This document shows, piece after piece, positions 2,547 through 38,043 of a stretch of DNA of 64,000 nt. Both the position numbers and the translations under genes were made by a program. The stretch lies in the NCBI RefSeq assembly GCF_000702665.1, contig NZ_JNJA01000011.1:1-64000 (forward strand). Direction: 5' to 3'. The stretch comes from Solidesulfovibrio alcoholivorans DSM 5433. GTDB lineage: Bacteria; Desulfobacterota; Desulfovibrionia; Desulfovibrionales; Desulfovibrionaceae. The notes under the pieces are model-generated. The model ran no database searches. It saw only the letters and a program-made list of their open reading frames with translations, and was not told the origin of the DNA. Position 1 is the stretch's first letter; each line of letters starts with the position of its first letter.

Positions 2547-2564
2547 ACAGATGCGACCCACTAG

Positions 2565-21613: not shown

Positions 21614-22699
21614 TCAGGCGTCGCCGGCCAGCACCCGCTCGTATTGCGGCACGACCACGGACACGTCGAAGCGTTCCCGGGCCCGGCCCCGGATGGCCTC
21701 GCGGGAAAGGCGCGCGGCCAGGGCGTCGTCCATGGCCCGGGCCAGGGCGGCCACGTCCCCGGCCGGCGCGGTGAGCCCGTCCCGGCCCTCCTCCACGATC
21801 TCGGCGATGCCGCCGGGGCAGCGGAAGGCGGCCACGGGCGCGCCCAGGGCCAGGGCCTCGAGCACGGCGTTGGGAAAGGGCTCGTAGCGCGAGGCGAGCA
21901 CGAACAGGTCGGCGTGGCGCATGTACGGGTAGGGATTGGCCTGGAAGCCGGGGAAGCGCACGGCGTCGGCGATGCCGAGCGACGCGGCCTGCGCCAGGAG
22001 CGCGGCCCGTTCGCCGCCTTCGCCGAGCACGGTGAGGCGCACGCCCGGCGTGCGCATGGCGGCGACGGCGGCAAGGAGCAGGTCGAAGCCCTTTTGCGGG
22101 GCCAGACGGCCGACGCTCACGAGTTCGACCCCGCCCGGCGGGTAGGGGTTCGCGGCGGCGTCCGCGTCACGCACGACCCGGTCCGTGTCCACGGGATTGG
22201 GCAGCATGACCATTTTCGCGGGCGGCAGACCGTAGTTGTCGCGCAGGTCGGCGAGCATGTCCGCGGACTGGCAGACCATCCGGTCGAGCCCCTTGTAGCC
22301 CAGGCGGTAGGCGGCGTCGTGCAGGGCGGGATGGGAAAACTGCCGCGTGTGCCGGCTGAGAATGGCCGTTTCGCGCCCGATCAGGCGCGTTTCGCGCGGC
22401 AGGAAGGGCGCGAGCATGCCGAGGATCAGGTTGACGTGGCTGTGCGTGCAAAGGACCGCGTCCGGGCGCAGGCGGCGGATGAGCGCGACGAGCTTGGGCG
22501 GGGCGGTGTGGTGCGTCTTGCAGCCCAGGTCGTGCACGGGCACGTCGGCGGGCACGTCGGCGAGGTAGCCGCCGCTCTTGCGCACCAGGGCCAGGGCGGG
22601 GCGGAAGCGGCGGCGGTCCAGGTGCGTAAGCAGGGTCGCGAACACGCGCTCCGCGCCGCCGCCGCCCAGGGTGGAGCTGACGAAAAGGACCGAGGTCAC
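21614..22699 (-). CDS. Glycosyltransferase, family 4
   Basis: A 361-residue GT-B enzyme. The N-terminus FVSSTLGGGGAERVFATLL is the acceptor-side glycine loop typical of GT4 proteins. The C-terminal half has LVSVGRLAPQKGFDLLLAAV, VLGEGGERAALL and SRYEPFPNAVLEALALGAPV, including the donor-binding E-x7-E region. It adds one sugar in the cytoplasm to a lipid-linked glycan. It starts with GTG at 22699, overlapping the stop of the preceding SGNH gene by four bases (GTGA), which fixes the start. The donor is unknown. A 91-base gap separates it from the next membrane protein gene. Confidence 0.86.
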   Translation of the reverse strand: MTSVLFVSSTLGGGGAERVFATLLTHLDRRRFRPALALVRKSGGYLADVPADVPVHDLGCKTHHTAPPKLVALIRRLRPDAVLCTHSHVNLILGMLAPFLPRETRLIGRETAILSRHTRQFSHPALHDAAYRLGYKGLDRMVCQSADMLADLRDNYGLPPAKMVMLPNPVDTDRVVRDADAAANPYPPGGVELVSVGRLAPQKGFDLLLAAVAAMRTPGVRLTVLGEGGERAALLAQAASLGIADAVRFPGFQANPYPYMRHADLFVLASRYEPFPNAVLEALALGAPVAAFRCPGGIAEIVEEGRDGLTAPAGDVAALARAMDDALAARLSREAIRGRARERFDVSVVVPQYERVLAGDA

Positions 22700-24105
22700 G
22701 GCCGGGCTTCGCCCTGCGCCTCGAGGGCGGCGAGGCGCTCCGCCAGCAGGCGGCCGAACAGGGCGTGTCCGGCCGTGTTGAGGTGGGCGTCGTTGATGTG
22801 GGGGAAAAGAAACGGCGCGGCCGGGGCTTCGCGGCGCATTCCGGGACGCGGGTCGAAAAACGGCAGCCCGAGGGACTCCACGGAGGCCTGCAACTGCCGG
22901 CCCCAGCCGAAATCCGCGTCCGGCACGGCGGCGAAGCGCGCCGCGCCCTCGGTCAGGAAGGGACGGTAGTATTCGATGGGCTGCGGCATGTAGGTGACGA
23001 GCACCCTGGCCCCCACCGAGGCGGCGAGCGCCTTGATGCGGGCCAGGGCGGCCAGGGTCGGGCCCATTTCGACGCCGGTGAGCTTCGAGGTCACGAGTTC
23101 GGTCTGGATGGAGGCGCTCGGCACGCGCACGGTCCCGGCCCCGCCCTGCACGGGAAAGGCGGTCATCTCCTGCCCGCCTGCCGCCGCGCCGCTCGGAGCG
23201 GGCCGGGCGGACGCGTCCCGCGCGGGCAGGCCGAACAGGGCCAGGGCCGCCACGTAGCGCGGCAGGTTCAGGCGGTTGAGCAGAAAGCCCACCGGCCCTT
23301 TCTCGGGATAGGCTTCGACGCCGACGAAATAATACGTCGCGTCGTCGAGGCCGGCCCTGTCCAGACGGTCGTAGGTCAGGGCGTCGGAGACGTCGTTTAG
23401 AAATAGCGCCACGACCACGACCCTGGGCTTCTTGGCCAGGCCGTAGCGCTCGAGCGCCGTGGCGTAGTCCTGGGGGGACTGGCCGCCGATGCCCAGGTTC
23501 AGGGCGGGCTGGCCGGTTGCTTCGGACACGATGCGCGCGAAGGGCTTTTCCGCCTCCAGGCCGGCCGTGCCGGAATCGCCGAGGAAGACGTAGGGAATGA
23601 CGGCGTGGTCGCTGTAGGTCCCGGGCGGGTTGTGGAAGCCGATCTCGTCCATGGTCACCGGGCCGGCGGGGCCGGGCACGGTGATGCCCGGCTTGTAATG
23701 GTAGTAGAGCCCGGAAATGTCGAAGCGCTGTTTCTTGTTCCCCAGTTCCTGCCAGGTCGCGGGGTTGGTCAGCTGGACGTAGCGCAGGTAGGCCGCCGGA
23801 GCGAGGTAGTGGGCTGCGCCCGTCCCGCCGACGAACAGGTCGGGCCGGTAGCCCAGCAGGAATTCGAACAGGAGCAGCGGCAGCAGCAGCGAGACCAGCG
23901 CGAGCAGCGTGTTCTGGGCGAGCCGTGCGGGAACGAAGAACAGGGCGAGCAGCGCCGCGGCGACGAGGCCGCCGCCGCAGAGCGCGGCGCGGATCATGCC
24001 CGGCGTCAGCCCCTGCGCGGGGGCCAGGGCGAACGCGGCGAGCAGCGCCGCGACCGCGAGGCCGCAACACAGGAACACGTAATGGGGAAAGCGCCTGCTG
24101 TGCAT
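22696..24105 (-). CDS. Membrane-anchored SGNH/GDSL-family hydrolase or acyltransferase
   Basis: A 469-residue protein. Residues 5-80 contain two to three membrane helices. The SGNH domain begins near 170 with GDS at 176-178 (FLGDSGTAGLEAE), block II GIGGQSPQDY (glycine), a block III asparagine in LFLNDVSDA, and D439-A-H441 in HINDAHLNTAGH. The D-x-H arrangement resembles AlgX/AlgJ-type proteins, which O-acetylate polysaccharides in the periplasm. A sugar O-acetyl transfer or esterase role is therefore likely. The start is the ATG at 24105, just before the first membrane helix. Its stop is coupled to the following GT4 gene. Confidence 0.72.
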   Translation of the reverse strand: MHSRRFPHYVFLCCGLAVAALLAAFALAPAQGLTPGMIRAALCGGGLVAAALLALFFVPARLAQNTLLALVSLLLPLLLFEFLLGYRPDLFVGGTGAAHYLAPAAYLRYVQLTNPATWQELGNKKQRFDISGLYYHYKPGITVPGPAGPVTMDEIGFHNPPGTYSDHAVIPYVFLGDSGTAGLEAEKPFARIVSEATGQPALNLGIGGQSPQDYATALERYGLAKKPRVVVVALFLNDVSDALTYDRLDRAGLDDATYYFVGVEAYPEKGPVGFLLNRLNLPRYVAALALFGLPARDASARPAPSGAAAGGQEMTAFPVQGGAGTVRVPSASIQTELVTSKLTGVEMGPTLAALARIKALAASVGARVLVTYMPQPIEYYRPFLTEGAARFAAVPDADFGWGRQLQASVESLGLPFFDPRPGMRREAPAAPFLFPHINDAHLNTAGHALFGRLLAERLAALEAQGEARP

Positions 24106-24152: not shown

Positions 24153-25208
24153 TCAGGGGGCATGGAAATCCACAATGCTTTGCGCGCACGCGACGCAGCG
24201 CGGATGTAGGCGCGGCGGCTCCATCTTGTGGTTCTGGCGAAACGTGGCAAACTTTTGACCGTTCCAGACGTCCTTGATGCTGTTGTCGAAAATGTTGCCC
24301 ATGACGAGGTGCATGCCTTCCCAGCCGCAGCAGGGCGCAACGTCTCCGTTGCTGCGGATGGTCACGAGCTGCCAGGATTGGGAGCAGCGGAAGGATGGGT
24401 CCGGGGCGGCCGTGGGACGGGCGACGGCGAGCGACGAGCCGTCCGGCAGGGTGAAGGTCTGCTCCTGCTGGAAAAGCATGCAGTTCTGGATGGCGACGTA
24501 ATCCACGCGCTTTTGCCAGTACGCGGCGAAATCGGTCATGGACTCCTTGTTGCCCGGCAGCTTGACCGCACTGATGCGCACCAGGGGCAGCCGGCGCCCG
24601 AGTTCTTTTTTGCGCCGCAGAAAGTAGTCGATGTTCTCCATCACCTTGTCGAAATCCGAGCCGCAGCGGATGGAGAGGTAGGTGTCCTTGTCCAGGGAGT
24701 CGAGGCTGATCTCCAGCCGCGTCACGGGCGAGTGCAGGATACGCTCCGCGGCCTCCCGGTCGAGCAGCACGGCGTTGCTGCACAGGAAGATGTCCATGAC
24801 CCCGACGGACGCTGCGTAGTCGATGTGGTCAAACAGGCTGGCGTCGACCAGCGGCTCGTTGATGCCGCCGAAATTGACTGCGGCGAGGTCGGTGCCCCGG
24901 CCCTGGTCGAGGATGTCCCTGACGGCGTCGGCATCGAGGCGCTTCGCGGAGGTGCCCCAGGCCGCGCGCTGCTGCGGCGGCAGGGAGTGCGGGCACATGA
25001 CGCACTTGAGGATGCAGCCGAAATAGGTCTCGAGGTTCAGGTGGATCGGAAAATCGGGTTCGTAAGCAAAGACGTTCGCTGCGTCCCACTTCTTCCGGTA
25101 TTCCCGGAACGCCGGGCCCTTGATCTCCGCCAGGACCTGGGCCGGATCGCGCTCGAACTCGAGAGTCGTCACGGAAAGCAGGTCGCGGTGTTGTGATTTG
25201 TCCGCCAT
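24153..25208 (-). CDS. Radical SAM protein with SPASM-like C-terminus
   Basis: A 351-residue protein. The [4Fe-4S]-AdoMet motif is C65-ILK-C69-VM-C72, followed by the glycine-containing NFGGINEPL strand and a typical partial TIM barrel. The C-terminus has CSQSW, APCCGW and CVAC, cysteines that can hold an auxiliary cluster as in SPASM/twitch proteins. The ATG at 25208 has AAGGG at good spacing; a GTG at 25217 that overlaps the previous stop is an alternative. It lies directly behind its paralogue at 25214, sharing an N-terminal FREYRKKW-like region. Its substrate is unknown; in this locus it could modify a sugar, lipid or small peptide. It probably belongs to the operon of the sugar amidotransferases upstream. 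Confidence 0.8.
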   Translation of the reverse strand: MADKSQHRDLLSVTTLEFERDPAQVLAEIKGPAFREYRKKWDAANVFAYEPDFPIHLNLETYFGCILKCVMCPHSLPPQQRAAWGTSAKRLDADAVRDILDQGRGTDLAAVNFGGINEPLVDASLFDHIDYAASVGVMDIFLCSNAVLLDREAAERILHSPVTRLEISLDSLDKDTYLSIRCGSDFDKVMENIDYFLRRKKELGRRLPLVRISAVKLPGNKESMTDFAAYWQKRVDYVAIQNCMLFQQEQTFTLPDGSSLAVARPTAAPDPSFRCSQSWQLVTIRSNGDVAPCCGWEGMHLVMGNIFDNSIKDVWNGQKFATFRQNHKMEPPRLHPRCVACAQSIVDFHAP

Positions 25209-25213
25209 ACGCG

Positions 25214-26203
25214 TCACCCTTGCTGCGTGGCGCCGAGCAGGCAGTTGAGGCAGGCCTTGCACGGGGCCTTGTCCCGAAATGACTGCCGCAGCGCGGTCAT
25301 CCTGGGCGAATTCCACACGCTTTCGAGCGAGAGGCCGCTGCGGAATTTGTCCAGGAGCAGGTGTTTCGAATAGAACGTGCAGCAGGGGTAGAGACCACCA
25401 TCGGCCCGTATCGAAAGATAGCGGAACGGGTCCGGGCAGCGCAACGCGGACGGGTCCGGGGCGACGATGTCCGCGAGCCCGTCGACGAAGTCGTGGGAGA
25501 TGTAGGTCTGGAAATCGATGTAGTCCACGAGGTGCTGCCATTTTTCCACGAACGCCCCGATCTCGTGCCTGTTGCTGTCCATGACGATGAATGACAGGCG
25601 GACGAGGGGATGCTTCATGCCACGTTTCTCGCGGCGGTCGAGGAAGTTGTGAATGTTGCGCTCGAGCCGGAGGAGGTCGCCGCCGCGCAGCTTCTTGTAG
25701 GTTTCGGGCGTCACCGCGTCCACGGAGATGTGGATGCGTGTCAGGCTGTCGAGGCAGGCGTCGACCATGGCGTCGTCGAGCAGCAGCCCGTTGGTGGTCA
25801 GTATGAAATCCAGGACACCGCTTTCCCCGGCCAGGCGGATCAGTTCCCCGGCTTGGGGATGCACGAGGGGCTCGCCGAGGCTGAAGTCCATGGCCGGGAT
25901 GCCGAGACGGCGTATCTCCTGCATGATCTCCCGGAACATGCCCGCGTCCATGGCGGCGTTGGTCTGCTCCGACAGGTGCCGGTAGCAGAACACGCAGCGC
26001 AGGTTGCAGCGGTCCGCGAGTTCGAGGGAAACATGCAGGGGCAGCGGGTTGTCCTGCTCCTGCACCTTGTCCGAACAGGTCAGCGCCCATTTTTCGCGGT
26101 AGGCGCGGTAGGCGTCGCCGAACAGTTCGATCAAATACCTGTCCAGGTCACCGTGACGGCAGAGGCGTTCGCCGTATTCGACGGGGAGTGCGTTCTCGAG
26201 CAT
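25214..26203 (-). CDS. Radical SAM protein with SPASM-like C-terminus
   Basis: A 329-residue protein with C66-NLR-C70-VF-C73 for the AdoMet-binding cluster, MDFSLGEPLVHP as the following GE motif, and ILTTNGLLLDD, all usual in the family. The C-terminus has CPDPF, YPCCTF and CKACLNC, suitable for an auxiliary cluster. AAAGGAA sits six bases before the ATG. It is followed after five bases by a paralogue (24153), so the two are co-translated and may act on the same substrate or as a pair. No precursor peptide is visible nearby, so it is not obviously a peptide-modifying enzyme. The substrate is unknown. Confidence 0.8.
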   Translation of the reverse strand: MLENALPVEYGERLCRHGDLDRYLIELFGDAYRAYREKWALTCSDKVQEQDNPLPLHVSLELADRCNLRCVFCYRHLSEQTNAAMDAGMFREIMQEIRRLGIPAMDFSLGEPLVHPQAGELIRLAGESGVLDFILTTNGLLLDDAMVDACLDSLTRIHISVDAVTPETYKKLRGGDLLRLERNIHNFLDRREKRGMKHPLVRLSFIVMDSNRHEIGAFVEKWQHLVDYIDFQTYISHDFVDGLADIVAPDPSALRCPDPFRYLSIRADGGLYPCCTFYSKHLLLDKFRSGLSLESVWNSPRMTALRQSFRDKAPCKACLNCLLGATQQG

Positions 26204-26282: not shown

Positions 26283-27593
26283 TCAGCGCATGGGGTAGGG
26301 GGATGTTTCCCGATGCGCAAGAATGTTGTCGGCAATCCGGTCGTAATAACCAGGAATGCGGTGATAGCCGCGGAGATAATGAAAGTTGCCGCACAACGGG
26401 TCCCGCATCCGCTCCAATCCGAAATTCACCCAGTCCCGCACGGCGACGGCGGCGGCCGGGACGTGGAAGCCCCCGGAGGGGCCGGCGGACTGAATGTCGG
26501 CGAGCACGATGTCCGCGACGCGTTCCAGGGCTGCGCCCGGGAGGTGCGTGCTGTAAAAGCGCGCCATGAACGCGTTCATGGCGGCGACGTCGAACGGCAC
26601 CGAAGCGGGATTGTCGATGTAATGCGCCAGTTCGTCAAAGCTTTTCGGGGCGCACGCCACCTTGCCGAGGAGTTCGTTGATGGAGTTGTAGTAGGCGAAC
26701 CCGTGCGTCCTGACCAACAGCCTGTCGATGAACAGCATGGGCACGCCCAGGAGGCAGGCTTCCCCAAGGGCCGTGGTCACGCTGCTGAGCACGATGTCCT
26801 GCCCGGCGGCCCAGCCCGGAAAATCCAAATGGTCGTCCACGCTGACGCGCCCCTCGTAGGCCGTGTTGTAGAAACACGCCTTCCCCCCCCGATGCACCTT
26901 GTACATCTGGGGCGCTTCCAGGGGATAGGGGCGCACCGACACCGCGTAGTCCGTTTCGGCGACGAGGTAATCGATGATCTTCGTGACCATCCCGAGCAGC
27001 TCCACCTCGAACTCCAGCGCCGACACCACGTCGGCCCGTCCGAAGGAGAGGTTCAGCGCGGAGTCGCCCCGGAAGTTGTTGAGGGTGAAGAAGTGGGTGC
27101 AGATGCCGACGGAGCGACGTGGCGCGCGGCCGGGGAAATAGCGGGCCAGGTCGAGGCGGGGGTGCCCGACGACCCGGACCTTGTCGCTCTCGAGGATCTC
27201 CCGGTACCTGCCCTGGTGCGCCTTGGCCTCATCGTCCAGCAGATACTGCCGCGTGCCCTCGCCCCACAGCAGAATGCGCCGCATCGCGCCGAAGTATTCC
27301 GGGAAGGAGACGAAAAACCGCTCGTCGTAGTTGGACGAGCATTGCCCCCCCTCGCCGGAGTAGCAGAAAAGCTGCACCCCGGGGGAGTACGGGGCGAACT
27401 GGGGGGTGTCGCCGCAACAGGGGTAGACCAGGGCCTGGGGCCGCCAGTGGCGCAGGTAGTGGAAGACCGAACGCTGGCTGCACACCACCACCGCGGCCCC
27501 GCTTTTGGCTTCGATGATTTTTTTGAGGACGTAATAGCTCGGCAGGTCCCGGCGCAGGGTCCGGGCCATGAGCAGGATGCGCGGACGGCTCAT
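26283..27593 (-). CDS. Putative surface-carbohydrate biosynthesis protein, GT-B type
   Basis: A 436-residue protein resembling the 'surface carbohydrate biosynthesis' family found beside nonulosonic acid genes, whose members look like GT-B glycosyltransferases. Visible spots are ILLWGEGTRQYL, VVGHPRLDLARYF and a C-terminal DIVLSSVTTALGEACLLGVP, which resembles the donor-binding part of CDP/CMP-sugar-using transferases. There is no signal peptide or membrane segment. The ATG at 27593 overlaps the stop of the amidotransferase-amidase gene (ATGA). It carries a run of eight C at 26883-26890. By context it may transfer the CMP-activated nonulosonic acid made by this locus; that is inference. Confidence 0.6.
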   Translation of the reverse strand: MSRPRILLMARTLRRDLPSYYVLKKIIEAKSGAAVVVCSQRSVFHYLRHWRPQALVYPCCGDTPQFAPYSPGVQLFCYSGEGGQCSSNYDERFFVSFPEYFGAMRRILLWGEGTRQYLLDDEAKAHQGRYREILESDKVRVVGHPRLDLARYFPGRAPRRSVGICTHFFTLNNFRGDSALNLSFGRADVVSALEFEVELLGMVTKIIDYLVAETDYAVSVRPYPLEAPQMYKVHRGGKACFYNTAYEGRVSVDDHLDFPGWAAGQDIVLSSVTTALGEACLLGVPMLFIDRLLVRTHGFAYYNSINELLGKVACAPKSFDELAHYIDNPASVPFDVAAMNAFMARFYSTHLPGAALERVADIVLADIQSAGPSGGFHVPAAAVAVRDWVNFGLERMRDPLCGNFHYLRGYHRIPGYYDRIADNILAHRETSPYPMR

Positions 27594-30217
27594 GCGCGCT
27601 CCCCGGAAGCGTCCTCCCGCGCCGCGGGCGCGAGGGGCGAGGGGCCGTCGGGCAGGAAGCCCTTGCGGCCCAGGGCGTCGATGCAGGCGAGCAGCAGCGG
27701 GTCGTTGTATTTGCGCGCCACGCACTGCACGCCGAAGGGCAGCCCGGCCGGCGAGACGAACGCCGGGGCGCTGACGGCCGGCAGGTGGGCCAGGGTCCAG
27801 ATGAGCGCGGGGTCGGGCAGTTCGAAGCGGTCGCGCAAGGGGGCTTCGCCGGCGGTCGCGAGGCTGATGCCCGCGTCGAAGCCGCGCATGAGCTCGTCCA
27901 TGGCCGCGATGCAGGTTTCCTGGTCGCGCAGGGCCTGGTTGTAGTCCAGGGCGGAAATGGCGCGCCCCTCGGCGATGATTTCGCGGATGACGTCGGACAG
28001 GTCGGTTTCGCTGCGCGATTCCTGGGCGAAGTAGTAGGCCAGGGAGCAGTGGTAGATGGTGCGGTGGATGTCGTGGGCGCGGCCGAGGATTTCCGGCAGC
28101 TCCGCCTCGACGACCTCGATGTCGGGGTCGGCGTCGAGCGCCCGGGCCAGATCGAGCAGGGCCTTCCGGGCGTAGTCGGGCGCGCCGGGGAAGGTGTGGG
28201 TTCTAAGCAGCGCCACGCGCCAGGGCCGGCCGGCCGGCTTGGTCTGGCGCCCGCGATCGGACAGGGCGGCGTCGCTGACGGGGTAGTTGCCGCCGTGGAC
28301 GCGCAGGGCCTGAAACAGCGGCGCGAGGCTGTCGCGCCGGGCGGCCAGGAAGCCCAGGGTGTCCAGGCTGTCGGTGGTCTTGAGGGTGCCGGTGCGCGGC
28401 AGCAGGCCGAAGCTGGGCTTGAAGCCGTAGACGCCGCAGAAGCTGGCCGGGCGGATGATGGAGCCGGCGGTCTGTGTGCCGAGCGCCGCCGGGACCATGC
28501 CCAGGGCCACGGCCACGGCCGAGCCCGAGGAGGACGTGCCCGGGGTGCGGGTCGCGTCGTGGGGGTTCACGGTCTTGCCCAGGGCGTGGACCGCGAATTC
28601 GGCGGTCACGGTTTTGCCCGCGACCACCGCGCCGGCGCGCTTGAGGTTGAAGACCAGGCGGGCGTCGTTGCCCGGGGTGAAGCCGCGCCACAGCGCGCTG
28701 CCCATCTCGGTGGGGTAGTCCTCGGTGTTGTAGGCGTCCTTGACGCCGATGGGCGCGCCTTCGAGCAGGCGCAGGGCCTGCCCCGGCACGAGGCGCGCGG
28801 TGAGCTCCCGTGCGGCGGCGCGCAGGCGTGCGGCGTCGAAGTGTTCGAAGGCCATGAACCGGGCGTCGAGCGCCTCCACGCGGCGGATGGTCGTCTCGGC
28901 CAGGTCGAGGGGGGTCAGCGCGCCGTCGGCCAGGTCCTGCACCAGTTCGGGCAGGCTGCGGCGCAGGAACAGGTCCGGTTCGGGTTCGCGGCGGGGCGCG
29001 CGGTTGCCGGCGACGAGCGGCGTGCCGTAGGTGGCGGTGTCCGTGCGGCGCAGGCGTTCGAGGAGCTGCTGGGCGAAGGGCAGGACGCGTTCCCGGTTGG
29101 GGGCCTGCTTGGGCAGCACGGGCATGTCGGCGTCGCGCAGCTTGCCCTGGCGCAGGCCGGCCATGATCTCGTAGAATTCCTCTTCGGTAAGGCCCGTGAA
29201 TTCCAGGAAATAATCCAGCGCCTCGGGACGTACCGGGTCGGTGCGCGCGATGAGGTCGAAGGCCTCCTCGCGGGTGAGCAGGCCGTTGCGCACGTCCACC
29301 GAGCCCTGGAAGGTCGCCCGGCCGAAGCCGCGCTTGAGGTAGCAGGTGAAGTCGTGCATGCCGGGCATGACGCATTCGGCGCTCTTGTAGCCCTTGTAGC
29401 TGTTTTCCATCTGGGTCTCGCGCCAGCCGTAGACGTCGCGTACGAGCTCGGTGTGGCGTTCGTCGTCCCAGAACATGTAGTCGCCGAGGTGCATGCCCTG
29501 GATGCCCGCGGCCTCGCATTCCTCGGCGCTCGGCAGCTGGAAGGGGTGGACGTCCTTGGCGCTGACCGTGTCGCAGACCATTTCATCGGGCGTACGCCTG
29601 GCGGAAATCTTGGTGAAATATTCCCGGTCGTAGCGAATGGGGTTGTTGTAGTCGGTCAGGCCCTGGCCCTCGGAGGCGGATTCGCCGTAGACGAGCAGCG
29701 GAATGCCGAAGCGCACGGCCACCTGCAGGGGGAACGCGCCGCAGCCGCTGTGGCAGTGCCAGCAGGTGTCGCCGATCTCGCGCAGGGACTTCGCGGCCAG
29801 GCGGTTGACCAGGTCCCGGTTGGGCGTGAACATCACATGGTCGAGGTTGAACGTCTCCAGGAGGTTCACGAGGTTGTACCACCCGGTTTCGCTGTACCAG
29901 TTGTGATTGAACGTCACGGCCAGGGGCTTCATGTTGTAGACCTTGACCAGCACGTGGGCCTGGAACATGCTGTCCTTGCCCCCGCTGATCGGCAACACGC
30001 AGTCGTAGTTGTTGCCCGCCGCGGCCTTGGCCTTGGCGAAGATCTCCCGCAGCTGCCTTTCCCGTGCCACCCAGTCGATGTGCATCTTCTGTTCCGAGGA
30101 CTGGCAGGCCCGGCAGATGCCCAGGGCGTCATGCACCGTGCCTTCCTCGGTTTCGGGCATGCAGCAGCGCACGCAGTAGCGCAGGTCGCGGAACAGGGGT
30201 TTTCCTCTGTGGTTCAA
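27590..30217 (-). CDS. Fusion of N-acetyl sugar amidotransferase (PseA/WbpG family) and GatA-like amidase
   Basis: An 875-residue two-domain protein. Residues 1 to about 370 match sugar amidotransferases: zinc-type cysteines at 15, 18, 35 and 38, the ATP pyrophosphatase loop SGGKDS at 78-83 and CWHCHSGCG. Residues about 420-860 are a complete amidase-signature domain: Lys of IGVKDAYN at about 493, the cis-Ser region GTSSSGSA at about 560 and the nucleophile Ser of GTQTAGSIIRPA at about 585. In known systems PseA/WbpG receives ammonia from HisH through HisF; here a glutamine- or amide-splitting amidase is built in. The start is TTG at 30217 with AAGGAG seven bases ahead and a TTGA overlap with the previous gene. 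Expected product: an acetamidino sugar. Ammonia coupling between the halves is inferred. Confidence 0.85.
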   Translation of the reverse strand: MNHRGKPLFRDLRYCVRCCMPETEEGTVHDALGICRACQSSEQKMHIDWVARERQLREIFAKAKAAAGNNYDCVLPISGGKDSMFQAHVLVKVYNMKPLAVTFNHNWYSETGWYNLVNLLETFNLDHVMFTPNRDLVNRLAAKSLREIGDTCWHCHSGCGAFPLQVAVRFGIPLLVYGESASEGQGLTDYNNPIRYDREYFTKISARRTPDEMVCDTVSAKDVHPFQLPSAEECEAAGIQGMHLGDYMFWDDERHTELVRDVYGWRETQMENSYKGYKSAECVMPGMHDFTCYLKRGFGRATFQGSVDVRNGLLTREEAFDLIARTDPVRPEALDYFLEFTGLTEEEFYEIMAGLRQGKLRDADMPVLPKQAPNRERVLPFAQQLLERLRRTDTATYGTPLVAGNRAPRREPEPDLFLRRSLPELVQDLADGALTPLDLAETTIRRVEALDARFMAFEHFDAARLRAAARELTARLVPGQALRLLEGAPIGVKDAYNTEDYPTEMGSALWRGFTPGNDARLVFNLKRAGAVVAGKTVTAEFAVHALGKTVNPHDATRTPGTSSSGSAVAVALGMVPAALGTQTAGSIIRPASFCGVYGFKPSFGLLPRTGTLKTTDSLDTLGFLAARRDSLAPLFQALRVHGGNYPVSDAALSDRGRQTKPAGRPWRVALLRTHTFPGAPDYARKALLDLARALDADPDIEVVEAELPEILGRAHDIHRTIYHCSLAYYFAQESRSETDLSDVIREIIAEGRAISALDYNQALRDQETCIAAMDELMRGFDAGISLATAGEAPLRDRFELPDPALIWTLAHLPAVSAPAFVSPAGLPFGVQCVARKYNDPLLLACIDALGRKGFLPDGPSPLAPAAREDASGERA

Positions 30218-30765
30218 CGGCGTTCTCCTTGAAATTCAGGGGCGCGGAAGGCCGCCATGCAGACGACGTCCTCCTCTTTCCCGTCCACGAGGTAATGGCG
30301 GCGGCGCACGCCGTCCTCCGCCATGCCCGAGGCGCGCATGACGGCGAGCATGGGGCGGTTGGCGGCAAGCGTCCCGGCCGCGACCTTGCGCAGGCCGCCC
30401 GGTCCGAGCAGCCAGGCGAGCCCCGTCTTCCAGGCGTCGAGCCCGAACCCCCGGCCCCGGCCCTCGCCGAGCAGGATGGTCAGGTCGGCCAGGGCGTTGG
30501 CCGGGTCCACGTAGGCGGCGAGGTTGCCCACGTGCCCGAGGGACGCGGCCTCCACGGCCCAGAGGTGGTGCGGCGGCCGGGTCATGGCCGCGGTCCAGTC
30601 GCGGCAGCTCTCCAGGGTGTGGCTGCGGTGGCGCTGCTCGCTGAAGCGCACGGTCTGCGGATCGTTGAGCCAGGACACGTAGCGCGCGGTGAGGTGTTGC
30701 GGCCCGAAGGGGCGCAGGACGATCCGCTCGCCGTCAAGCAGGGGGGTCGCGACCACGTCAGGCAA
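30214..30765 (-). CDS. GNAT N-acetyltransferase, RimJ/RimL-like
   Basis: A 183-residue protein. ERIVLRPFGPQHL and YVSWLNDPQTVRF at the start and GEGRGRGFGLDAWKTGLAWL (the acetyl-CoA loop, residues 100-119) fit GNAT sugar acyltransferases of the RimJ/PseH kind. It would acylate an amino sugar in the pathway. The start is TTG at 30765, eight bases before the end of the DegT gene; a GTG at 30756 is an alternative. It is coupled to the amidotransferase gene by TTGA. Confidence 0.78.
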   Translation of the reverse strand: MPDVVATPLLDGERIVLRPFGPQHLTARYVSWLNDPQTVRFSEQRHRSHTLESCRDWTAAMTRPPHHLWAVEAASLGHVGNLAAYVDPANALADLTILLGEGRGRGFGLDAWKTGLAWLLGPGGLRKVAAGTLAANRPMLAVMRASGMAEDGVRRRHYLVDGKEEDVVCMAAFRAPEFQGERR

Positions 30766-32059
30766 GCTCGCTGCGGTGTTCCCAGACCTTGGCGAAGGCT
30801 TCCGCCACGTCGGCCAGATCGTCCCGGGTCATGCCCGGGCGCATGAGCTCGTGGGTGAAAAGGTCGCGTTCGTGCAGCCGCTCCACCACCGGGCAGATGC
30901 CCTTGTCGTAGCGGGCCTCGCCTTCGTACCAGGGCTTGGCGAAGGGGTAGCCCCGGGAGCCGAAGGCGATGCGTTTCTGGAAAAGGGGCTGGAGGTACAG
31001 CGGCTTGACGTAGCCGCAGCCGATGTTCACGCCCTCGGTTTCGCGCAGCGCCGTGGGGGCGAGTTCGGCCCGGACGGCGTCCATGAAGCGGTCCCGGGAC
31101 ACGCCGGCCACATCCTCGCGGAACAGGCAGGCGTGGACGTAGAAGGCGTGGCCGCAGCCCTGCCGCACCAGCGGCGGCACGATGGCCGGGATGGCGGCCA
31201 GGCGCTCGGCCAGGAAGGCGCAGTTGGCCTGCCGCCGCTCCAGCAGGGGGCCGAGCTTTCGCAGCTGGCAGCGCCCGATGGCGGCTTGCGGCTCGGTCAG
31301 GCGGTAGTTGAACCCGACCATGTTGACCAGGTCCGTGACGCCCTTGTCCTCGACCACGGCTTCGGCGTGGTTGCGGATCAGGCGGACCTTTTCCGCCAGG
31401 GCGTCGTCGTCGGTGGCCACGACGCCGCCTTCGCCGGTGTGGATGTGCTTGTGGTAGTTGAGGGAATAGACGCCGATGTCGGCGAGTCCCCCGGCGTGGC
31501 GCTTGCCATGGGTCGCGCCCGGGGCCTGGGCCGCGTCCTCGATGACGCGCAGGCCGTGCTTTCTGGCGACGGCGTTGACGGCGTCGGCGTCGTAGGGCTG
31601 GCCGAACAGGTCCACGGCCATGATCGCCCGGGTGCGCGGGGTGATGGCCGCCTCCACGGCGGCCGGGTCGATGCAGAAGCAGTCGGGTTCGATGTCGGCG
31701 AACACGGGCACGGCCCCGTAGACGAGGGGCGCGGTGGCCGTGGCGGCCATGGTGTAGGGCGGGACGATGATCTCCTCGCCCGGCTCCGTGCCGATGGCCC
31801 CGACCGCGGCGTACAGGCCCGAGGTGCAGGAGTTGACGGCGATGGCGTGCTTGACGCCGAAGTACGCGGCCCATTCCTCTTCGAAGGCCCGGACCTCGGG
31901 TCCGCCGTAGAAGTCGTCGTGCCAGCAGCCGAGGTAGCGCGAGAGCACGCCGGTATCGAGCACGCGGGCCACGGCCGCCTTCTCTTCCTCGCCGATGACT
32001 TCATAAGCGGGAAAAGGGCTGGTCCGGACCGGCGCGCCGCCGTGAATGGCCAGTTTCAT
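30758..32059 (-). CDS. DegT/DnrJ/EryC1-family sugar aminotransferase
   Basis: A 433-residue PLP enzyme. AVNSCTSGLYAAVGAIGTEPGEE, split by the usual pyrophosphate-binding residues, is followed by VIEDAAQAPGA and the Schiff-base lysine K204 in SLNYHKHIHTGEGG. It transfers an amino group, normally from glutamate, to a keto sugar nucleotide. At 433 residues it is longer than PseC-type enzymes (about 380) because of an extended C-terminal part (FGSRGYPFAKPWYE). That type is found with oxidoreductase-generated keto sugars, and the Gfo/Idh/MocA gene two positions upstream fits. It overlaps the genes on both sides (ATGA and eight bases). Confidence 0.85.
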   Translation of the reverse strand: MKLAIHGGAPVRTSPFPAYEVIGEEEKAAVARVLDTGVLSRYLGCWHDDFYGGPEVRAFEEEWAAYFGVKHAIAVNSCTSGLYAAVGAIGTEPGEEIIVPPYTMAATATAPLVYGAVPVFADIEPDCFCIDPAAVEAAITPRTRAIMAVDLFGQPYDADAVNAVARKHGLRVIEDAAQAPGATHGKRHAGGLADIGVYSLNYHKHIHTGEGGVVATDDDALAEKVRLIRNHAEAVVEDKGVTDLVNMVGFNYRLTEPQAAIGRCQLRKLGPLLERRQANCAFLAERLAAIPAIVPPLVRQGCGHAFYVHACLFREDVAGVSRDRFMDAVRAELAPTALRETEGVNIGCGYVKPLYLQPLFQKRIAFGSRGYPFAKPWYEGEARYDKGICPVVERLHERDLFTHELMRPGMTRDDLADVAEAFAKVWEHRSELA

Positions 32060-33036
32060 ATCGGTTCGTCCATGGTTGGGGGCATGCCTAGGATGGTTGC
32101 GAAAATGTCGGGCAGGGCGTTGGCATGCCGTATTTCCTTGTGCGGCAGGGAGCATCGGCGCTTGGCAGCGGGGGGAAAGTAGCTGAAAACCGGTTTCCCC
32201 GCAACCAGGGCGATGACCAGGGCCATGCTTTCCGCGCCGACCACGGCGTCGGCCCAGGCCAGGTCGTCGAGGAGGTCGCGGTTGGGCGACAGCGACAGGC
32301 GGTCGCAGGCGGCCACGGCGGGCGCGTACTTGGCCGGGTCCTCGTTGGGGTGCGGGCGCAGGCGCACGCGAAGCGGCAGCCCGCGCGCCGCCCGGGCCAG
32401 CGCGTCGAGGAGCGTGAACTCGTCGAACCCCAGGCGGTCGGCGTCGGCGTAGGTGTCGGCGTTGTCCCCGGCCACGGGCTCGCACACCCAGAGCACGCGG
32501 CGCTCCCCGGCCGGCGCGGCCGGGGAGCGCCTGGCGCGCAGCGCCTCGCGCACCGCGGCAAGGTAGTGGTTTTCCTCCAGGCGCAGCCGCTCCCGGGGAA
32601 AGCCCTGGGCCAGGGCCAGTTCCCGCGCGTAGGCGTCGGCCACCACCACGAGGTCGGGCAGGTGTTGCGCCCAGTCGTCCGGGATGGCCGCCCACAGGCG
32701 CGTGGGCAGGAAGCGTTCGCGGTAGTTGACCCAGTGGTCGAGGAAGGCGGCGCAGCGCACGCCGCGCTCCCGCGCCAGGGCCATGGCCCGGCGCTCGAGG
32801 TCGGGCATCCAGCTCGTGGAGACGAGCACCTGGTCCCGGGCGGGATCGAGGGCGGCCACGGCGGAAAGGCCCACGCGGCGCACGTCGCCGAGCCGGGCCG
32901 GGAAGATGTCCGCCGCCGGTCCCTCGAGGACATAGCGCACCTCCCGTCCGGACAGGCGCGCCCGGATGAACGCGGACAGCACCTGCGCGCCGCCGGCCTC
33001 GCAGGAAACCGCGACGGTCAGGCCGGGAACGTCCAT
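32056..33036 (-). CDS. Putative GT-B-type glycosyltransferase or related sugar-nucleotide protein
   Basis: A 326-residue soluble protein that I cannot place in a family with certainty. The N-terminus TVAVSCEAGGAQVLSAFI and a late segment DAVVGAESMALVIALVAGKP have the shape of the two GT-B Rossmann halves, the second like the donor site of CMP- or UDP-sugar transferases. LRVRLRPHPNEDP resembles the basic/His segment of polysialyltransferase-like and CDP-glycerol-like proteins. It is coupled to the DegT gene (ATGA) and overlaps the oxidoreductase gene by 19 bases. A transferase for the amino sugar made by this block is a reasonable guess. Confidence 0.5.
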   Translation of the reverse strand: MDVPGLTVAVSCEAGGAQVLSAFIRARLSGREVRYVLEGPAADIFPARLGDVRRVGLSAVAALDPARDQVLVSTSWMPDLERRAMALARERGVRCAAFLDHWVNYRERFLPTRLWAAIPDDWAQHLPDLVVVADAYARELALAQGFPRERLRLEENHYLAAVREALRARRSPAAPAGERRVLWVCEPVAGDNADTYADADRLGFDEFTLLDALARAARGLPLRVRLRPHPNEDPAKYAPAVAACDRLSLSPNRDLLDDLAWADAVVGAESMALVIALVAGKPVFSYFPPAAKRRCSLPHKEIRHANALPDIFATILGMPPTMDEPI

Positions 33037-34001
33037 CGGCGTGCGAGCTCCCGGCACAGGTCGAGGGTGGCCAGGGCCGAGTCGCCGTCGGAGACGGGCG
33101 CTTCCAGGCCCGCGAGCACGCGCGCGATGTGCGCGGCCACGTGGCTCTGGCCCTGTTCGTATTCCCCGGGCGCGACCAGGGAGCGGCCGGCGGCCAGGGC
33201 CCGGCAGTCCGGGAAATGCGGGTCCGGCCCGGCGGGGTGGAAGCTGACCGCCCGGCCGAAGTCGGCGTAGCGCACAGCGCCCCCGGCAAAAAGCAGTTCC
33301 AGGTCGGCGTGGGCGTAGTCCGCCCCGGTCAGGGCCTGGCAGACGCAGGCCGCGCCGGAAAATTCCAGGAAGAAATCCACGGCGTCGGGATCGGCCGCGG
33401 CCCGGCCGGGCCGGGGCAGCACGCCGCAGGCGTCGGGTTCGCCGAACAGCAGGCGCAGCAGGTCCACGAAGTGGGCGGCGTTGTGGGCCAGCCCGCCGCT
33501 GTAGGCCAGGCGTCCGGCCAAAAGCGGCCCGAGGCCCCCGCCCGCGAGCAGTTCGCGGATACGGGCCACGGCCGGCTCGCAGCGGCGGTGGTAGTTGACG
33601 CAAAGCGTGACGCCGCGCGCGCGGCAGGCCGCGACCATCTCCCGGCCCGCGTCCGCGTCCGTGGCCAGGGGCTTTTCCACGAGAAGCAGGCGCGGCGAAA
33701 GTTCCAGGCACTGCCGCACCTGCTCCGGGCGGCCCTCGGGGGGGGTGGCCAGCACGACGAGGTCGGGCGGCCCGGGCAGGGCGGCGGGGATGGCCGCGAA
33801 AGCCGGCAGGCCGGTTGCGGCGGCGAAGCGGGCGCGTCTGTCCGGGGCGGGGTCCACGCCTCCGAGCAGGCGCAGGGACGGCTGGCGCAGCAGGGCGCGG
33901 GCGTGGGTCAGGACCAGATCCGGCGCGCCGTCGGCGTCGTAAAGAAACCCGATGCGCCCGAGGCCCACGAGCAGCGCGGAAAACGTGCGGCCGTCGTCCA
34001 T
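33018..34001 (-). CDS. Gfo/Idh/MocA-family sugar oxidoreductase
   Basis: A 327-residue protein. LLVGLGRIGFLYD at residues 10-22 is the NAD-binding start; LLVEKPLATD gives the EKP motif and NAAHFVDLLRLLFG the usual active-site helix with His and Asp. These enzymes oxidise or reduce a hydroxyl/keto group of a sugar nucleotide. Together with the DegT aminotransferase it could form a keto-then-amino module. A run of eight G occurs at 33738-33745. The substrate is unknown. Confidence 0.82.
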   Translation of the reverse strand: MDDGRTFSALLVGLGRIGFLYDADGAPDLVLTHARALLRQPSLRLLGGVDPAPDRRARFAAATGLPAFAAIPAALPGPPDLVVLATPPEGRPEQVRQCLELSPRLLLVEKPLATDADAGREMVAACRARGVTLCVNYHRRCEPAVARIRELLAGGGLGPLLAGRLAYSGGLAHNAAHFVDLLRLLFGEPDACGVLPRPGRAAADPDAVDFFLEFSGAACVCQALTGADYAHADLELLFAGGAVRYADFGRAVSFHPAGPDPHFPDCRALAAGRSLVAPGEYEQGQSHVAAHIARVLAGLEAPVSDGDSALATLDLCRELARRWTFPA

Positions 34002-34005
34002 GGGC

Positions 34006-34752
34006 CTAGACCTCTTTGCGGGCCACGTGGCGGTTGATGGCGGCCAGTTCGGGCCGGGCGTCGAGCAGGGCCAGGATGTCGGCGCAGGAAAAGACCGGAT
34101 TGGCCGGGTAGAGCGCCTCGGCGACCGCGGCCAGCAGGCGGTAGTCGTCGGCCTCGTCCAGGGTGAGCCCGAGTTCGGGGCGGCGCAGGGCGGGCGGCGC
34201 GGGCAGGTGGAGCTTGCGGAAGCGTTCGGGCTGGCGGCGGATGAACCAGCTCACGTGCTCGCGGTCCTCGGGACTTGTACCCTCGCGGTCGGCCAGGGCC
34301 AGCAGCTCGCGGGAGAAGACCTGGGCGTCCATGCCGACGGGAAAGGACACGGGGTCCACGTTGGAGGCGTAGTCGCAGTCGTTTAAGAGGTACAGGTCGA
34401 TGACCTGGGCGGTGATCTCGGGATCGAGCAGGGGGCAGTCGGCGGTGATCTCCACCACGAGGTCGGCCCCGGCCTCGCCGGCGGCGCCGAGCACCCGCGA
34501 CAGGACGTCGTGCTCCGAGCCCCGGAAGACGCCGACGCCGAGCCTGCGGCCCAGGGCGGCCACGGGGTCGTCCGCGGCGTTGGCCGTGGTGGCCAGGACG
34601 ATGGCGTCCAGGCGGCGCACCCGCGACAGGCGCTCGACCAGGATTTCCAGGAAGGGCTTGCCGCAGGCGGGCATGAGCACCTTGCCGGGCAGGCGCGACG
34701 AGGTCATGCGGCATTCCACCGTGGCCACGATCCTCGGGCGGTCTTGAGACAT
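34006..34752 (-). CDS. Cytidylyltransferase of the SpsF type
   Basis: A 248-residue nucleotidyltransferase. VATVECRMTSSRLPGKVLMP has the signature RMxSxRLPGK of CMP-acid-sugar synthetases; ITADCPLLDPEI carries the metal-binding aspartates. Nearby families activate pseudaminic, legionaminic or KDO acids with CTP. Since no classical PseF is present, this gene or the fused domain at 38074 probably makes the CMP-sugar. GAGGA lies seven bases before the ATG. Confidence 0.82.
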   Translation of the reverse strand: MSQDRPRIVATVECRMTSSRLPGKVLMPACGKPFLEILVERLSRVRRLDAIVLATTANAADDPVAALGRRLGVGVFRGSEHDVLSRVLGAAGEAGADLVVEITADCPLLDPEITAQVIDLYLLNDCDYASNVDPVSFPVGMDAQVFSRELLALADREGTSPEDREHVSWFIRRQPERFRKLHLPAPPALRRPELGLTLDEADDYRLLAAVAEALYPANPVFSCADILALLDARPELAAINRHVARKEV

Positions 34753-35385: not shown

Positions 35386-36174
35386 CTACCGGGTCTGCCG
35401 GACGGGGATGCCGGCGTTGACGATGCGGGAGCGGATTTGCAGGATGTTTTCGTCCTTGAAGGAGAAATAGGTGCCCGCGGCCACGGCGTCGGCCCCGCCC
35501 CGGGCGAAGCCTTCCACGAAATGGGCGGCGGCCCCGCAGCCGCCGGAGACGATCACCGGCACGGAGACCGCCGCGGCCACCCGGCGGCAGCCCTCCAGGT
35601 CCAGGCCTTCGCGGCTGCCGTCGCGGTCGATGCAGGTGAGCAGGATCTCGCCCGCGCCGAGCGCCTCGCCGCGCGCGGCCCACTGCGCCGGGTCCAGGCC
35701 CGTGGCCTGCGCGCCGCCCCGGGCGTAGACCCGGTCCGCGCCGTCCGGGTCGCGGCGGTAGTCCACGGAGAGCACCACGCACTGCGCGCCGAACGCCGCC
35801 GAGGCTTCGGTAATGAGTTCGGGCCGCTCCAGGGCGGCGGTGTTGACGCTGACCTTGTCCGCGCCGTTGGCCAGAAGCACGCGGAAGTCCTCCACCGTGC
35901 GCACGCCGCCGCCCACGGTGAAGGGCATGAAGATCTCCTCGGCGGCGCGGCGCACCACGTCGATGACCGTGGAGCGGTTGTCGGCCGAGGCGTCGAGGTC
36001 GAGGAAGACGAGTTCGTCGGCGGCCTGGGCCTCGTAGATGCGTGCCTGGGAGACCGGGTCGCCGATCTCCACGGTCTCCCCGAAGCCCCGCGTGGTCACG
36101 AGGACCATGCGCGGCTTTTTCGCGAAGCGGCTGGCCCGCATCTGGAGCTTGGGAATGATCCGGCGCTTGAGCAT
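35386..36174 (-). CDS. HisF paralogue serving a sugar amidotransferase
   Basis: A 262-residue TIM barrel. It keeps the phosphate-site motif [12 protein letters not shown] and [13 protein letters not shown]. However, the first catalytic aspartate of true HisF (LDV at residue 11) is replaced: the N-terminus reads IIPKLQM, with Gln at 11. In O-antigen loci such HisF copies act with HisH and WbpG/PseA to deliver ammonia, not to make histidine. One base separates it from the HisH gene, and the amidotransferase is upstream, so the three form the classic trio. Confidence 0.88.
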
Positions 36175-36175
36175 G

Positions 36176-36793
36176 TCAGGGCGTCCAGTCGAGGAAGTTT
36201 TCCAGCACCTTGAGCCCGAGGTCCTGGCTCTTTTCCGGGTGGAACTGGGTGCCGGCGATGTTGCCGCGCCGCACGGCGGCCGTGAACGGGCCGCCATAGT
36301 CGCCCGTGGCGTCCACCTCCTCGGGGCGGTCGCAGCGCAGGGCGTAGGAATGGACGAAATAGAAATCCGGCGCGTCGGGCAGGCCGGCGAACAGCGGGCT
36401 GCCCGGCCGGCAGCGCACGTCGTTCCAGCCGATCTGCGGCACGCGCAGGGCCGGGTCGGCCGGCTCCAGGCGGGCCACGTCGGCCATAAACCAGCCCAGG
36501 CCGGGGTGCTCGCCGCCCTCGAAGCTGCGCCGGGCCATGAGTTGCAGGCCGACGCAGATGCCGAGGATGGGCTTGCCGCCGTCCAGGGCCTCGCGCGTGA
36601 GCGCGACGTCGAGGCCGGCCCGGCGCAGGCTCGCGGCGCAGGCGGCGAAGGCCCCCACGCCCGGCAGGATGAGGCGGTCGGCCGCGGCCAAGGCCTCGGG
36701 CGAGGCGCAAAGGACCGCCTCGGCCCCGAGCATGGCCAGGGCGTTTCGCACCGAAAGGATGTTGCCCGACCCGTAGTCCACCACGCCGATCAT
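36176..36793 (-). CDS. HisH paralogue, glutamine amidotransferase subunit
   Basis: A 205-residue class I amidotransferase. The triad is C80 (GICVGLQLM), H185 and E187 (TQFHPEKSQ). The oxyanion region LPGVGAF is also present. It releases ammonia from glutamine; with the neighbouring HisF paralogue and PseA/WbpG-type protein it supplies nitrogen for an acetamidino sugar. The ATG at 36793 is typical of HisH (MIGVVDYGSGN). The frame remains open for 1 kb upstream, but that stretch is the shadow of other genes. Confidence 0.9.
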   Translation of the reverse strand: MIGVVDYGSGNILSVRNALAMLGAEAVLCASPEALAAADRLILPGVGAFAACAASLRRAGLDVALTREALDGGKPILGICVGLQLMARRSFEGGEHPGLGWFMADVARLEPADPALRVPQIGWNDVRCRPGSPLFAGLPDAPDFYFVHSYALRCDRPEEVDATGDYGGPFTAAVRRGNIAGTQFHPEKSQDLGLKVLENFLDWTP

Positions 36794-36837: not shown

Positions 36838-38043
36838 CTAGTCCCGCCGCCCGGCGCGCCAGCGCGCGAGCATGGCCTCGGTCTCCTCCCGGGGCATGGC
36901 GCCGCACCTCGGCCAGCGGTCGAAGTCGTGGGGCGCGGGGCAGCCGCCGCGCGCCGCCGGGTCGTGCCGGTAGGGAGAGACGGCCTGGCGCATGGCGATT
37001 TCCAGGAATTCCTCCTCGGTCAGGCCGAGGTAGTCCAGGAACACGTCCAGGCTGGGCGGCCGCCGGCCTTCGTAGGCCGCGACGAGGCGCATGGCCTCGT
37101 CGCGGTCCAGGCGGCCGTTGCGGATGTCCAGGGAGGTCAGGTGGGACGTCCTGGCGTAGCCGCGCTTGATGAACTTGATGTAGTCGCGCACGCCCTGGAA
37201 GAAGCACTCGATCTTTTCGTATTCGTAGCCCGGGGGCACGTTCTCCACCTCGTCCCCGCGCCAGCCCAGCTCGTCGCGGATGCGCGCGTACTGCCGCTTG
37301 ACGTCCCAGGGGATGTAGGAGCCCAGGCACACGGAACGGTAGCCGATGCGGCGCAGTTCCTTGAGCGGCGGGTAGGTGAAGGGTTTCAAATCCCGTTCGT
37401 CCACCGCGCCCTCCAGGCGCACGAGCATGTCCTCGGCGTTGATGCCGAGGTTGACGTAGCGGTTGAAGCGCTTTTCGTCCACGGCCTCGGGCTGGTCGTA
37501 GCTGAAGTAGGCGGTGTATTCGGCCGAGGGCTCGCCCCACAGGATCAGCGGCACCTGCTTTTCCACGGCCACCCACATGGGGTAGGCGAAGATGCCGGTG
37601 TGGCAGTGCCAGCAGAAGTCGCCCTTCTCCAGCAGGCTCTGGAGCATGAGCTTGCGCACCACCTTCCAGTTGGGCGTGAACACGTGCAGGTCCACGCCGA
37701 GCTCGCGGCAGGTGCGGATGGTGCCTTCCTGGACGCCGGGACGCAGGAAGCCGTGGTCGAAGCGCACGAGCAGGGGTTTGATGCCGTATTCCCGTACGAG
37801 GTACAGGACGGTGAAGGTGCTGTCCTTGCCGCCGCTGAAGGGGATGAGGCAGTCGTAGTCGCCCTTGCCGCGATGGGCCTCGATCAGGGCGTCGAGCTCG
37901 CGCTTGCGGGCCGGCCAGTCGATGGCCTCGCGCTTGTGCTCCTGCTGCCGGCAGATGTTGCACACGCCGGCGTCGTCGAAGGTGATGGTCTCGTGGGTCT
38001 CGGGCAGGACGCACCGGGAACAGCGGCGAAGTTCGGTCGGCAT
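36838..38043 (-). CDS. N-acetyl sugar amidotransferase (PseA/WbpG family)
   Basis: A 401-residue ATP-dependent enzyme with zinc-type cysteines at 8, 11, 28 and 31 and the PP-loop SGGKDS at 70-75. CWHCHTGIF and KRGYARTSHLTSLDIRNG are conserved family parts, also found in the fused protein at 27590. It activates the N-acetyl group of a sugar with ATP and replaces its oxygen by ammonia, giving an acetamidino group, as for Pse5Ac7Am in Campylobacter or amidino-uronate in Pseudomonas O5. HisH and HisF paralogues follow directly. Which sugar is used here is not proven; the pseB-pseI genes make pseudaminic acid the first candidate. Confidence 0.9.
   Translation of the reverse strand: MPTELRRCSRCVLPETHETITFDDAGVCNICRQQEHKREAIDWPARKRELDALIEAHRGKGDYDCLIPFSGGKDSTFTVLYLVREYGIKPLLVRFDHGFLRPGVQEGTIRTCRELGVDLHVFTPNWKVVRKLMLQSLLEKGDFCWHCHTGIFAYPMWVAVEKQVPLILWGEPSAEYTAYFSYDQPEAVDEKRFNRYVNLGINAEDMLVRLEGAVDERDLKPFTYPPLKELRRIGYRSVCLGSYIPWDVKRQYARIRDELGWRGDEVENVPPGYEYEKIECFFQGVRDYIKFIKRGYARTSHLTSLDIRNGRLDRDEAMRLVAAYEGRRPPSLDVFLDYLGLTEEEFLEIAMRQAVSPYRHDPAARGGCPAPHDFDRWPRCGAMPREETEAMLARWRAGRRD

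Follow-up and report, generated by a model that had tools for sequence, protein, structure and literature searches.

Predicted Twitch radical SAM enzymes encoded in tandem in a pseudaminic-acid-type locus of Solidesulfovibrio alcoholivorans: the surroundings of their relatives suggest that radical chemistry helps to decorate sialic-acid-like surface sugars

The stretch of DNA analysed here as a whole (the window) comprises 64,000 nt, namely, positions 1-64,000 of contig NZ_JNJA01000011.1 of Solidesulfovibrio alcoholivorans DSM 5433 (GCF_000702665.1). Its minus strand carries two intact genes, spaced by 5 nt, whose predicted products are radical SAM/Twitch enzymes of 329 aa (A, 25214..26203) and 351 aa (B, 24153..25208), which are 32% identical to each other over 331 columns (BLASTP, E 7e-49). 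Each of them contains a CX3CX2C motif (C66/C70/C73 in A and C65/C69/C72 in B), four cysteines of the Twitch type (C256, C274, C315, and C318 in A; C275, C293, C338, and C341 in B), and an N-terminal helix with the motif AYREKW in A and EYRKKW in B, which is kept as YRxxW in relatives. Both proteins match the Radical_SAM family PF04055 of Pfam (68.8 bits for A and 49.3 bits for B, with a cut-off of 29.5) and exceed the cut-off of the Pfam SPASM family. Among the NCBIfam matches listed, neither A nor B reaches a curated cut-off. The top NCBIfam row is the tungsten oxidoreductase maturase model TIGR04317 (104.5 bits for A and 83.6 bits for B, with a cut-off of 380); the identity of A and B as tungsten-enzyme maturases was rejected, as these scores are far under the cut-off and no such oxidoreductase was noticed in the operon. 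A search for a viral source gave no match. The preliminary description of this region as encoding two related radical SAM proteins five bases apart, with a shared FREYRKKW-like N-terminal region, is confirmed, with two corrections, which concern the domain class and the adjacency to an amidotransferase gene.

A and B belong to a complete pseudaminic-acid operon on the minus strand, which begins with the gene of the PseB dehydratase (44765..45739; 492 bits with TIGR03589, above the cut-off) and ends near 19.6 kb; its genes mostly overlap or are separated by gaps of less than 100 nt. The PseB gene is followed by genes of a PseC-like aminotransferase (43632..44768; labelled from its sequence and its resemblance to DegT-type relatives), a PseG hydrolase with a C-terminal acetyltransferase (42137..43639; TIGR03590, 182.5 bits, above the cut-off; the C-terminal half is PseH-like by reading only), and pseudaminic acid synthase PseI (41088..42140; TIGR03586, 467.8 bits, cut-off 340). 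Further downstream are genes of an inositol-dehydrogenase-like Gfo/Idh oxidoreductase (40119..41087; TIGR04380, 107 bits, under the cut-off of 355), a fusion of a cytidylyltransferase with a class III aminotransferase (38074..40122; PF02348 and PF00202), an N-acetyl sugar amidotransferase of the PseA/WbuX type (36838..38043; TIGR03573, 342.5 bits, above the cut-off), and its HisH-like glutaminase (36176..36793) and HisF-like ammonia-channel (35386..36174) partners. The last two were labelled by reading the sequence, and their homologues recur beside each other's and WbuX genes. A relative of the cytidylyltransferase-aminotransferase fusion, equal in length, is encoded beside radical SAM, HisH, and HisF genes in another locus, L100.

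The part of the operon closer to the pair starts with a second, SpsF-like copy of cytidylyltransferase (34006..34752; without an NCBIfam match at 1e-20, and 46% identical to an SpsF-like protein encoded in L106) and continues with a Gfo/Idh/MocA oxidoreductase (33018..34001; PF01408), a surface-carbohydrate GT-B-like protein (32056..33036; a weak match to TIGR04396, under the cut-off), a DegT-type aminotransferase, here named DegT30 (30758..32059; PF01041), a GNAT acetyltransferase (30214..30756; PF13302), and a fusion of a second N-acetyl sugar amidotransferase of the WbuX/PseA type with an amidase (27590..30217; TIGR03573, 315 bits, cut-off 203.2, at 13-352, and PF01425 at 439-843). PDB relatives of DegT30 include 2-deoxy-scyllo-inosose aminotransferase (5w70) and Kdo8N transaminase (5k8b). 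The radical SAM pair had been placed beside the amidotransferase-amidase gene; the latter is not its immediate neighbour, as a gene of a 436 aa glycosyltransferase-like protein (26283..27593; no Pfam match; a weak match to the surf_polysacc model TIGR04396, 2e-8, under the cut-off) separates it from A. Downstream of B lies a gene of an SGNH/GDSL-type hydrolase (22696..24105; PF13472, 29.4 bits, under the cut-off of 32.9). Thus, the locus carries several acetyltransferases, two Gfo/Idh enzymes, and two WbuX-type amidotransferases, and since PseB, PseI, PseG, and both amidotransferases score above the NCBIfam cut-offs, we assign it as a pseudaminic-acid-type locus with many extras.

Other radical SAM genes are present in the vicinity. 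A B12-binding radical SAM protein (46678-48147, minus strand; PF02310 and PF04055) is encoded upstream of the Pse genes, and 49 of 117 examined loci contain members of its cluster of relatives, which indicates that both radical SAM types often travel together. The window carries a fourth radical SAM gene (50267-51361, minus strand), next to one that is polysaccharide deacetylase-like by reading (51409-52365). A third, more distant member of the family, encoded on the same contig (G000:C11:78783-79670; L053:14690-15733), has no YRxxW motif and is also near a NeuB gene.

The C-terminal cysteines of A and B had at first been read as those of a full SPASM domain. SPASM enzymes have two auxiliary clusters and the motif CX2CX5CX3C. 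The Twitch domain is a shortened version of the SPASM domain and binds a single auxiliary cluster (PMC9012708). We counted as SPASM the motif CX2CX5CX3C in the C-terminal domain, and as Twitch a C-X17-C plus CX2C arrangement as in BtrN. CX3CX2C is present in all 69 YRxxW members that were counted, the Twitch arrangement in 68 of them, A and B among these, and the full SPASM motif in none. In an alignment of 20 relatives, C275, C293, C338, and C341 of B are among the invariant residues. The preliminary description was right that clustered cysteines occur in the C-terminal part, and the SPASM assignment was dropped upon the cysteine count; the C-terminal domain of A and B is, by its cysteine pattern, a four-cysteine Twitch domain, predicted to bind one auxiliary cluster.

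AlphaFold (AF2) models of B and A have a mean pLDDT of 91.5 and 87.7, respectively, and the YRxxW motif sits in the second of two confidently modelled N-terminal helices. A profile of 40 members compared with the PDB gave BtrN as the first match (3.6e-33, with the runner-up at 4.9e-20), and the alignment of the Twitch part is ungapped across all four cysteines. As judged from this profile, BtrN is the nearest solved relative of A and B, and the kinship spans both domains with a significant score. The superposition on BtrN covers 228 residues at 2.7 A and starts at model residue 49. In the comparison of folds, BtrN (Z 20.9) is tied with the peptide-acting SkfB (20.8), anSME (20.3), and SuiB (20.2), and the fold therefore leaves the choice between a sugar and a peptide substrate undecided. 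The top Foldseek row for A is DesII (8hzv, 8hzy), whose NCBIfam model TIGR04426 gives 38.4 bits for A and 27.3 bits for B, out of 450 bits.

Enzymes of the Twitch/SPASM class catalyse many reactions, and sugar epimerases exist among them; DesII, a sugar deaminase, and BlsE, a sugar decarboxylase, are close to A and B both in fold and in the profile search. This is the evidence for a redox-neutral radical reaction on a sugar (epimerisation, deamination, or dehydration) at the same loci, in which the task of A and B would be to fix the stereochemistry or to take off a group. We consider such chemistry rather unlikely. The four-cysteine auxiliary cluster with BtrN spacing, though compatible with other chemistry, accompanies in BtrN the two-electron oxidation of an aminocyclitol alcohol; the cluster of BtrN is of very low potential, and a role for it as an electron acceptor has been proposed (PMC9012708).

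Searches for close orthologues of A or B in 149 genomes found none, and the nearest full-length matches beyond the own genome are about 33-35% identical. More distant relatives with the YRxxW motif were compared with relatives that lack this N terminus with respect to their genomic surroundings. In a scan of named genomes (80 loci), NeuB is encoded in 12 of 19 loci with YRxxW vs. 3 of 61 loci without this motif (p 3e-7; this value and those below are too small, because related sequences are not independent). The phylum sample comprised 395 genomes, 77 of which were searched for NeuB. Among the listed hits, 22 of the 28 with a matching N terminus and 7 of the 83 others have a NeuB gene at a distance of up to 20 kb (p 4e-12), a count that omits one bacterial family (f87), the own genome, hits outside the 77 NeuB-searched genomes, and the last hits of the phylum list. 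The exclusion of f87 was chosen after its differing surroundings had been seen. When the 24 listed hits of this family are added by a hand count, the proportions are 22/52 vs. 7/83 (p 7e-6), so that the association weakens yet stays significant. In the G-locus set outside f87, the contrast is weaker and not significant (10/18 vs. 2/8). On a tree of 68 rows, the NeuB label changes 4 times, compared with a mean of 17.0 upon shuffling, and a value as low was obtained in none of 500 shuffles. One further N-terminally matched protein, of genome G278, which is outside the 77, has no NeuB on its contig of 7.3 kb. The own genome has 61 radical SAM hits, of which 5 have a NeuB gene no farther than 20 kb away; A and B, both within 20 kb of PseI, are among these 5. 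We propose a NulO (nonulosonic acid)-linked YRxxW subfamily of radical SAM proteins, defined by the YRxxW helix, the Twitch cysteines, and NeuB within 20 kb; A and B have all three.

The six genomes of f87 are an exception. They encode at least five lineage-specific YRxxW paralogues at several conserved non-NulO sites (L089, L093, L195-L205), where the neighbours, named by reading, are CoaBC, MtaB-like, IspG-like, AmpG-like, or glycosyltransferase-like genes; one of these sites adjoins the glycosyltransferase-like genes. NeuB was found in none of 10 f87 loci and a direct NulO neighbour for none of 21 genes; NeuB is encoded elsewhere in all six genomes. These sites indicate that the subfamily is not restricted to NulO loci and that YRxxW alone is no marker of NulO function. 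The f87 members at unrelated sites, together with the low identity of A and B to their nearest full-length relatives, would fit the assumption that the pair are bystanders, that is, general-purpose or selfish accessory genes of variable glycan islands with no role in sugar synthesis. Yet tight linkage to genes of a cytidylyltransferase, NeuB, or WbuX, frequently with an overlap, recurs across several phyla, and members of pairs are retained jointly in L042 and L086/L087, which makes this assumption very unlikely in our opinion.

The linkage can be seen in the direct neighbours. Outside f87, 20 of 48 YRxxW genes are no more than 60 nt away from a NulO-type gene of the same strand; neither A nor B is among these 20. 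NeuA-like genes are direct neighbours in L044, L050, L051, L052, L090, L091, and L106, and WbuX genes in L090, L091, L113, and L116, with the order HisH-HisF-WbuX-radical SAM in L113 and L116. A gene of a NeuB-cytidylyltransferase fusion is directly beside the radical SAM gene in L112, L117, L118, L130, and L194, and other direct neighbours include WbqC (L042) and PIG-L (L086, L087). The domains of the fusion, as determined on L112 (10928-12700), are NeuB, SAF, and cytidylyltransferase. In this locus and in L117, L118, L130, and L194, a second NeuB gene is near by, and the NeuB motif of the fusion departs, by reading, from the classic one. The 6.3 kb contig of L107 carries five genes of the radical SAM family that follow one another at 909-6222.

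Several loci resemble that of the window also with respect to DegT30, orthologues of which, 45-46% identical, are encoded beside relatives of A and B. L106 and L108 resemble the window in that they encode an orthologue of DegT30 (46%), NeuB, and a relative of Gfo/Idh enzymes, and DegT30 (a strong match), a cytidylyltransferase, and a radical SAM protein are common to the window and L109. When the 395 genomes of the phylum sample were searched, orthologues of DegT30 turned up in 5 of them, one being the own genome. A fixed coupling between DegT30 and the radical SAM genes is not claimed: among the four other DegT30 loci analysed, L212 shows no family radical SAM gene within the 16.6 kb covered, L213 has just a distant member (86 bits), and L211 and L214, which are on short contigs, have none.

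In L119 (10001-13571), the radical SAM gene is followed by genes of an acyl carrier protein, a ligase-like protein, and an aminoglycoside-acetyltransferase-like protein, in this order, and a flagellin gene is close. The first of these arrangements, as well as the several acetyltransferases and two amidotransferases of the window, may suggest that what A and B modify is an acyl group (N-acyl or carrier-bound), a glycan lipid, or a neighbouring glycosyl unit with which the NulO is decorated, and not the carbon chain of the sugar. An acyl carrier protein gene adjoins, however, only 1 of the 48 YRxxW genes outside f87, and we regard this explanation as improbable.

The possibility that the substrate is a peptide or protein, such as a RiPP precursor, flagellin, or an enzyme of the locus, draws on the tie in fold between BtrN and SPASM/Twitch enzymes acting on peptides, and on the presence of a flagellin gene in four examined loci (L086, L087, L194, and L119). 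It has to be set against several results. The absence of a precursor peptide gene near the pair, already noticed in the preliminary description, was borne out by the gene call made for this analysis, which leaves only 132 nt of non-coding DNA in the region of 22-31 kb and hence no room for such a gene. The search for a short conserved peptide gene that had been advised revealed no repeated small neighbour, the acyl carrier protein gene mentioned above being the only gene of less than 110 aa that adjoins any of the 48 YRxxW genes, and the neighbourhood survey points to NulO loci rather than peptides. No PqqD-like domain was found in A or B with Pfam at E 0.01, a search by which divergent domains can be missed. 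The six Flagellin_N matches in the own genome are all outside the contig of the window. Moreover, the linkage with NeuB and NulO genes persists in L108 (Dehalococcoidales), L110 (Parcubacteria), and L114 (Hadarchaeum), lineages which we take to be flagella-less. In view of these results, we find a peptide or protein substrate quite improbable.

Results of the phylogenetic analysis bear on the relationship between the members of tandem pairs. The tandem genes of L042 and L086/L087 form two separate clades (100/100 and 100/99) that flank a 100/97 split, and this pair is therefore old and has been kept together, which suggests two different steps. B groups with proteins of L106 and L109 (94/91), and A with a set that holds alphaproteobacterial genes located beside WbuX (83/92). 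The tree places A and B in different groups, but their common clade is not rejected by the AU test (p-AU 0.131), and a recent local duplication may be their source.

We consider it somewhat probable that A and B perform a radical and probably oxidative, BtrN-like step in the making or decoration of a NulO, its precursor, or its acyl groups. In radical SAM enzymes, the [4Fe-4S] cluster bound by CX3CX2C cleaves SAM, which yields the 5'-deoxyadenosyl radical. If A and B are two working Twitch enzymes of a recurrent accessory branch of NulO biosynthesis, the cluster of each would generate this radical, which would then abstract a hydrogen atom from a carbon of a small substrate, which we infer to be a pseudaminic-type sugar, its intermediate, or an acyl group on it. 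The auxiliary cluster, fully cysteine-ligated, would take the second electron, so that the net step would most likely be a two-electron oxidation, e.g., of C-OH to C=O as in BtrN. A keto product may be a substrate for further enzymes of the operon, namely, its additional aminotransferases, both Gfo/Idh oxidoreductases, the acetyltransferases, and the amidotransferases, and A and B presumably divide the labour between them. The earlier idea of radical chemistry on a nonulosonic acid or its glycan is partly supported, by the enrichment of NeuB near YRxxW genes, the lack of a repeated small neighbour, and the proximity to BtrN; it is tempered by the f87 exception and by the nature of the data, as association with NulO genes is not function, and the target of A and B may be an acyl group or a different component of the glycan instead of the nine-carbon ring.

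Known pseudaminic and legionaminic acid routes rely on dehydratases, aminotransferases, acyltransferases, and NeuB condensation. A radical step would alter carbons that are out of reach of these enzymes, would account for unusual sugars on the flagella and envelopes of anaerobes, and would give many unnamed Twitch radical SAM proteins a concrete, testable function. Our literature search, which covered few subscription papers and preprints, found no paper on radical SAM enzymes in NulO biosynthesis or glycosylation. Tentatively, we put forward as a possibility a wider, undescribed branch of NulO biosynthesis, widespread in bacteria and archaea, in which unactivated carbons of nine-carbon sugars would be functionalised by Twitch enzymes, in many cases by two that act in series. 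If so, BtrN-like oxidation followed by amination or acylation would lead to surface and flagellar sugars with chemistry unseen in this class.

Among known systems, the SPASM peptide maturases (SkfB, SuiB, PqqE, and anSME) have the overall fold in common with A and B, with similar Z values, but differ from the YRxxW subfamily, which lacks the full SPASM motif and a precursor gene. DesII, TDP-4-amino-4,6-dideoxyglucose deaminase, is likewise a radical SAM enzyme, has a nucleotide-sugar substrate, and is larger. BtrN, 2-deoxy-scyllo-inosamine dehydrogenase of the butirosin pathway (PDB 4m7t), leads the profile matches by 13 orders of magnitude and shares with A and B the radical SAM core and the Twitch domain with its C-X17-C/CX2C ligands; the differences concern the YRxxW helices, which are outside the structural match, the low identity (18%), and the operon. 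As regards the locus, the models of PseB, PseG, PseI, and WbuX are common to that of the window and to pseudaminic and legionaminic acid loci (PseB, PseC, PseG, PseI, and PseA with HisH/HisF). Beyond this common set, the locus of S. alcoholivorans encodes the two predicted Twitch radical SAM enzymes, the second cytidylyltransferase, the amidotransferase-amidase fusion, and additional aminotransferases and oxidoreductases.
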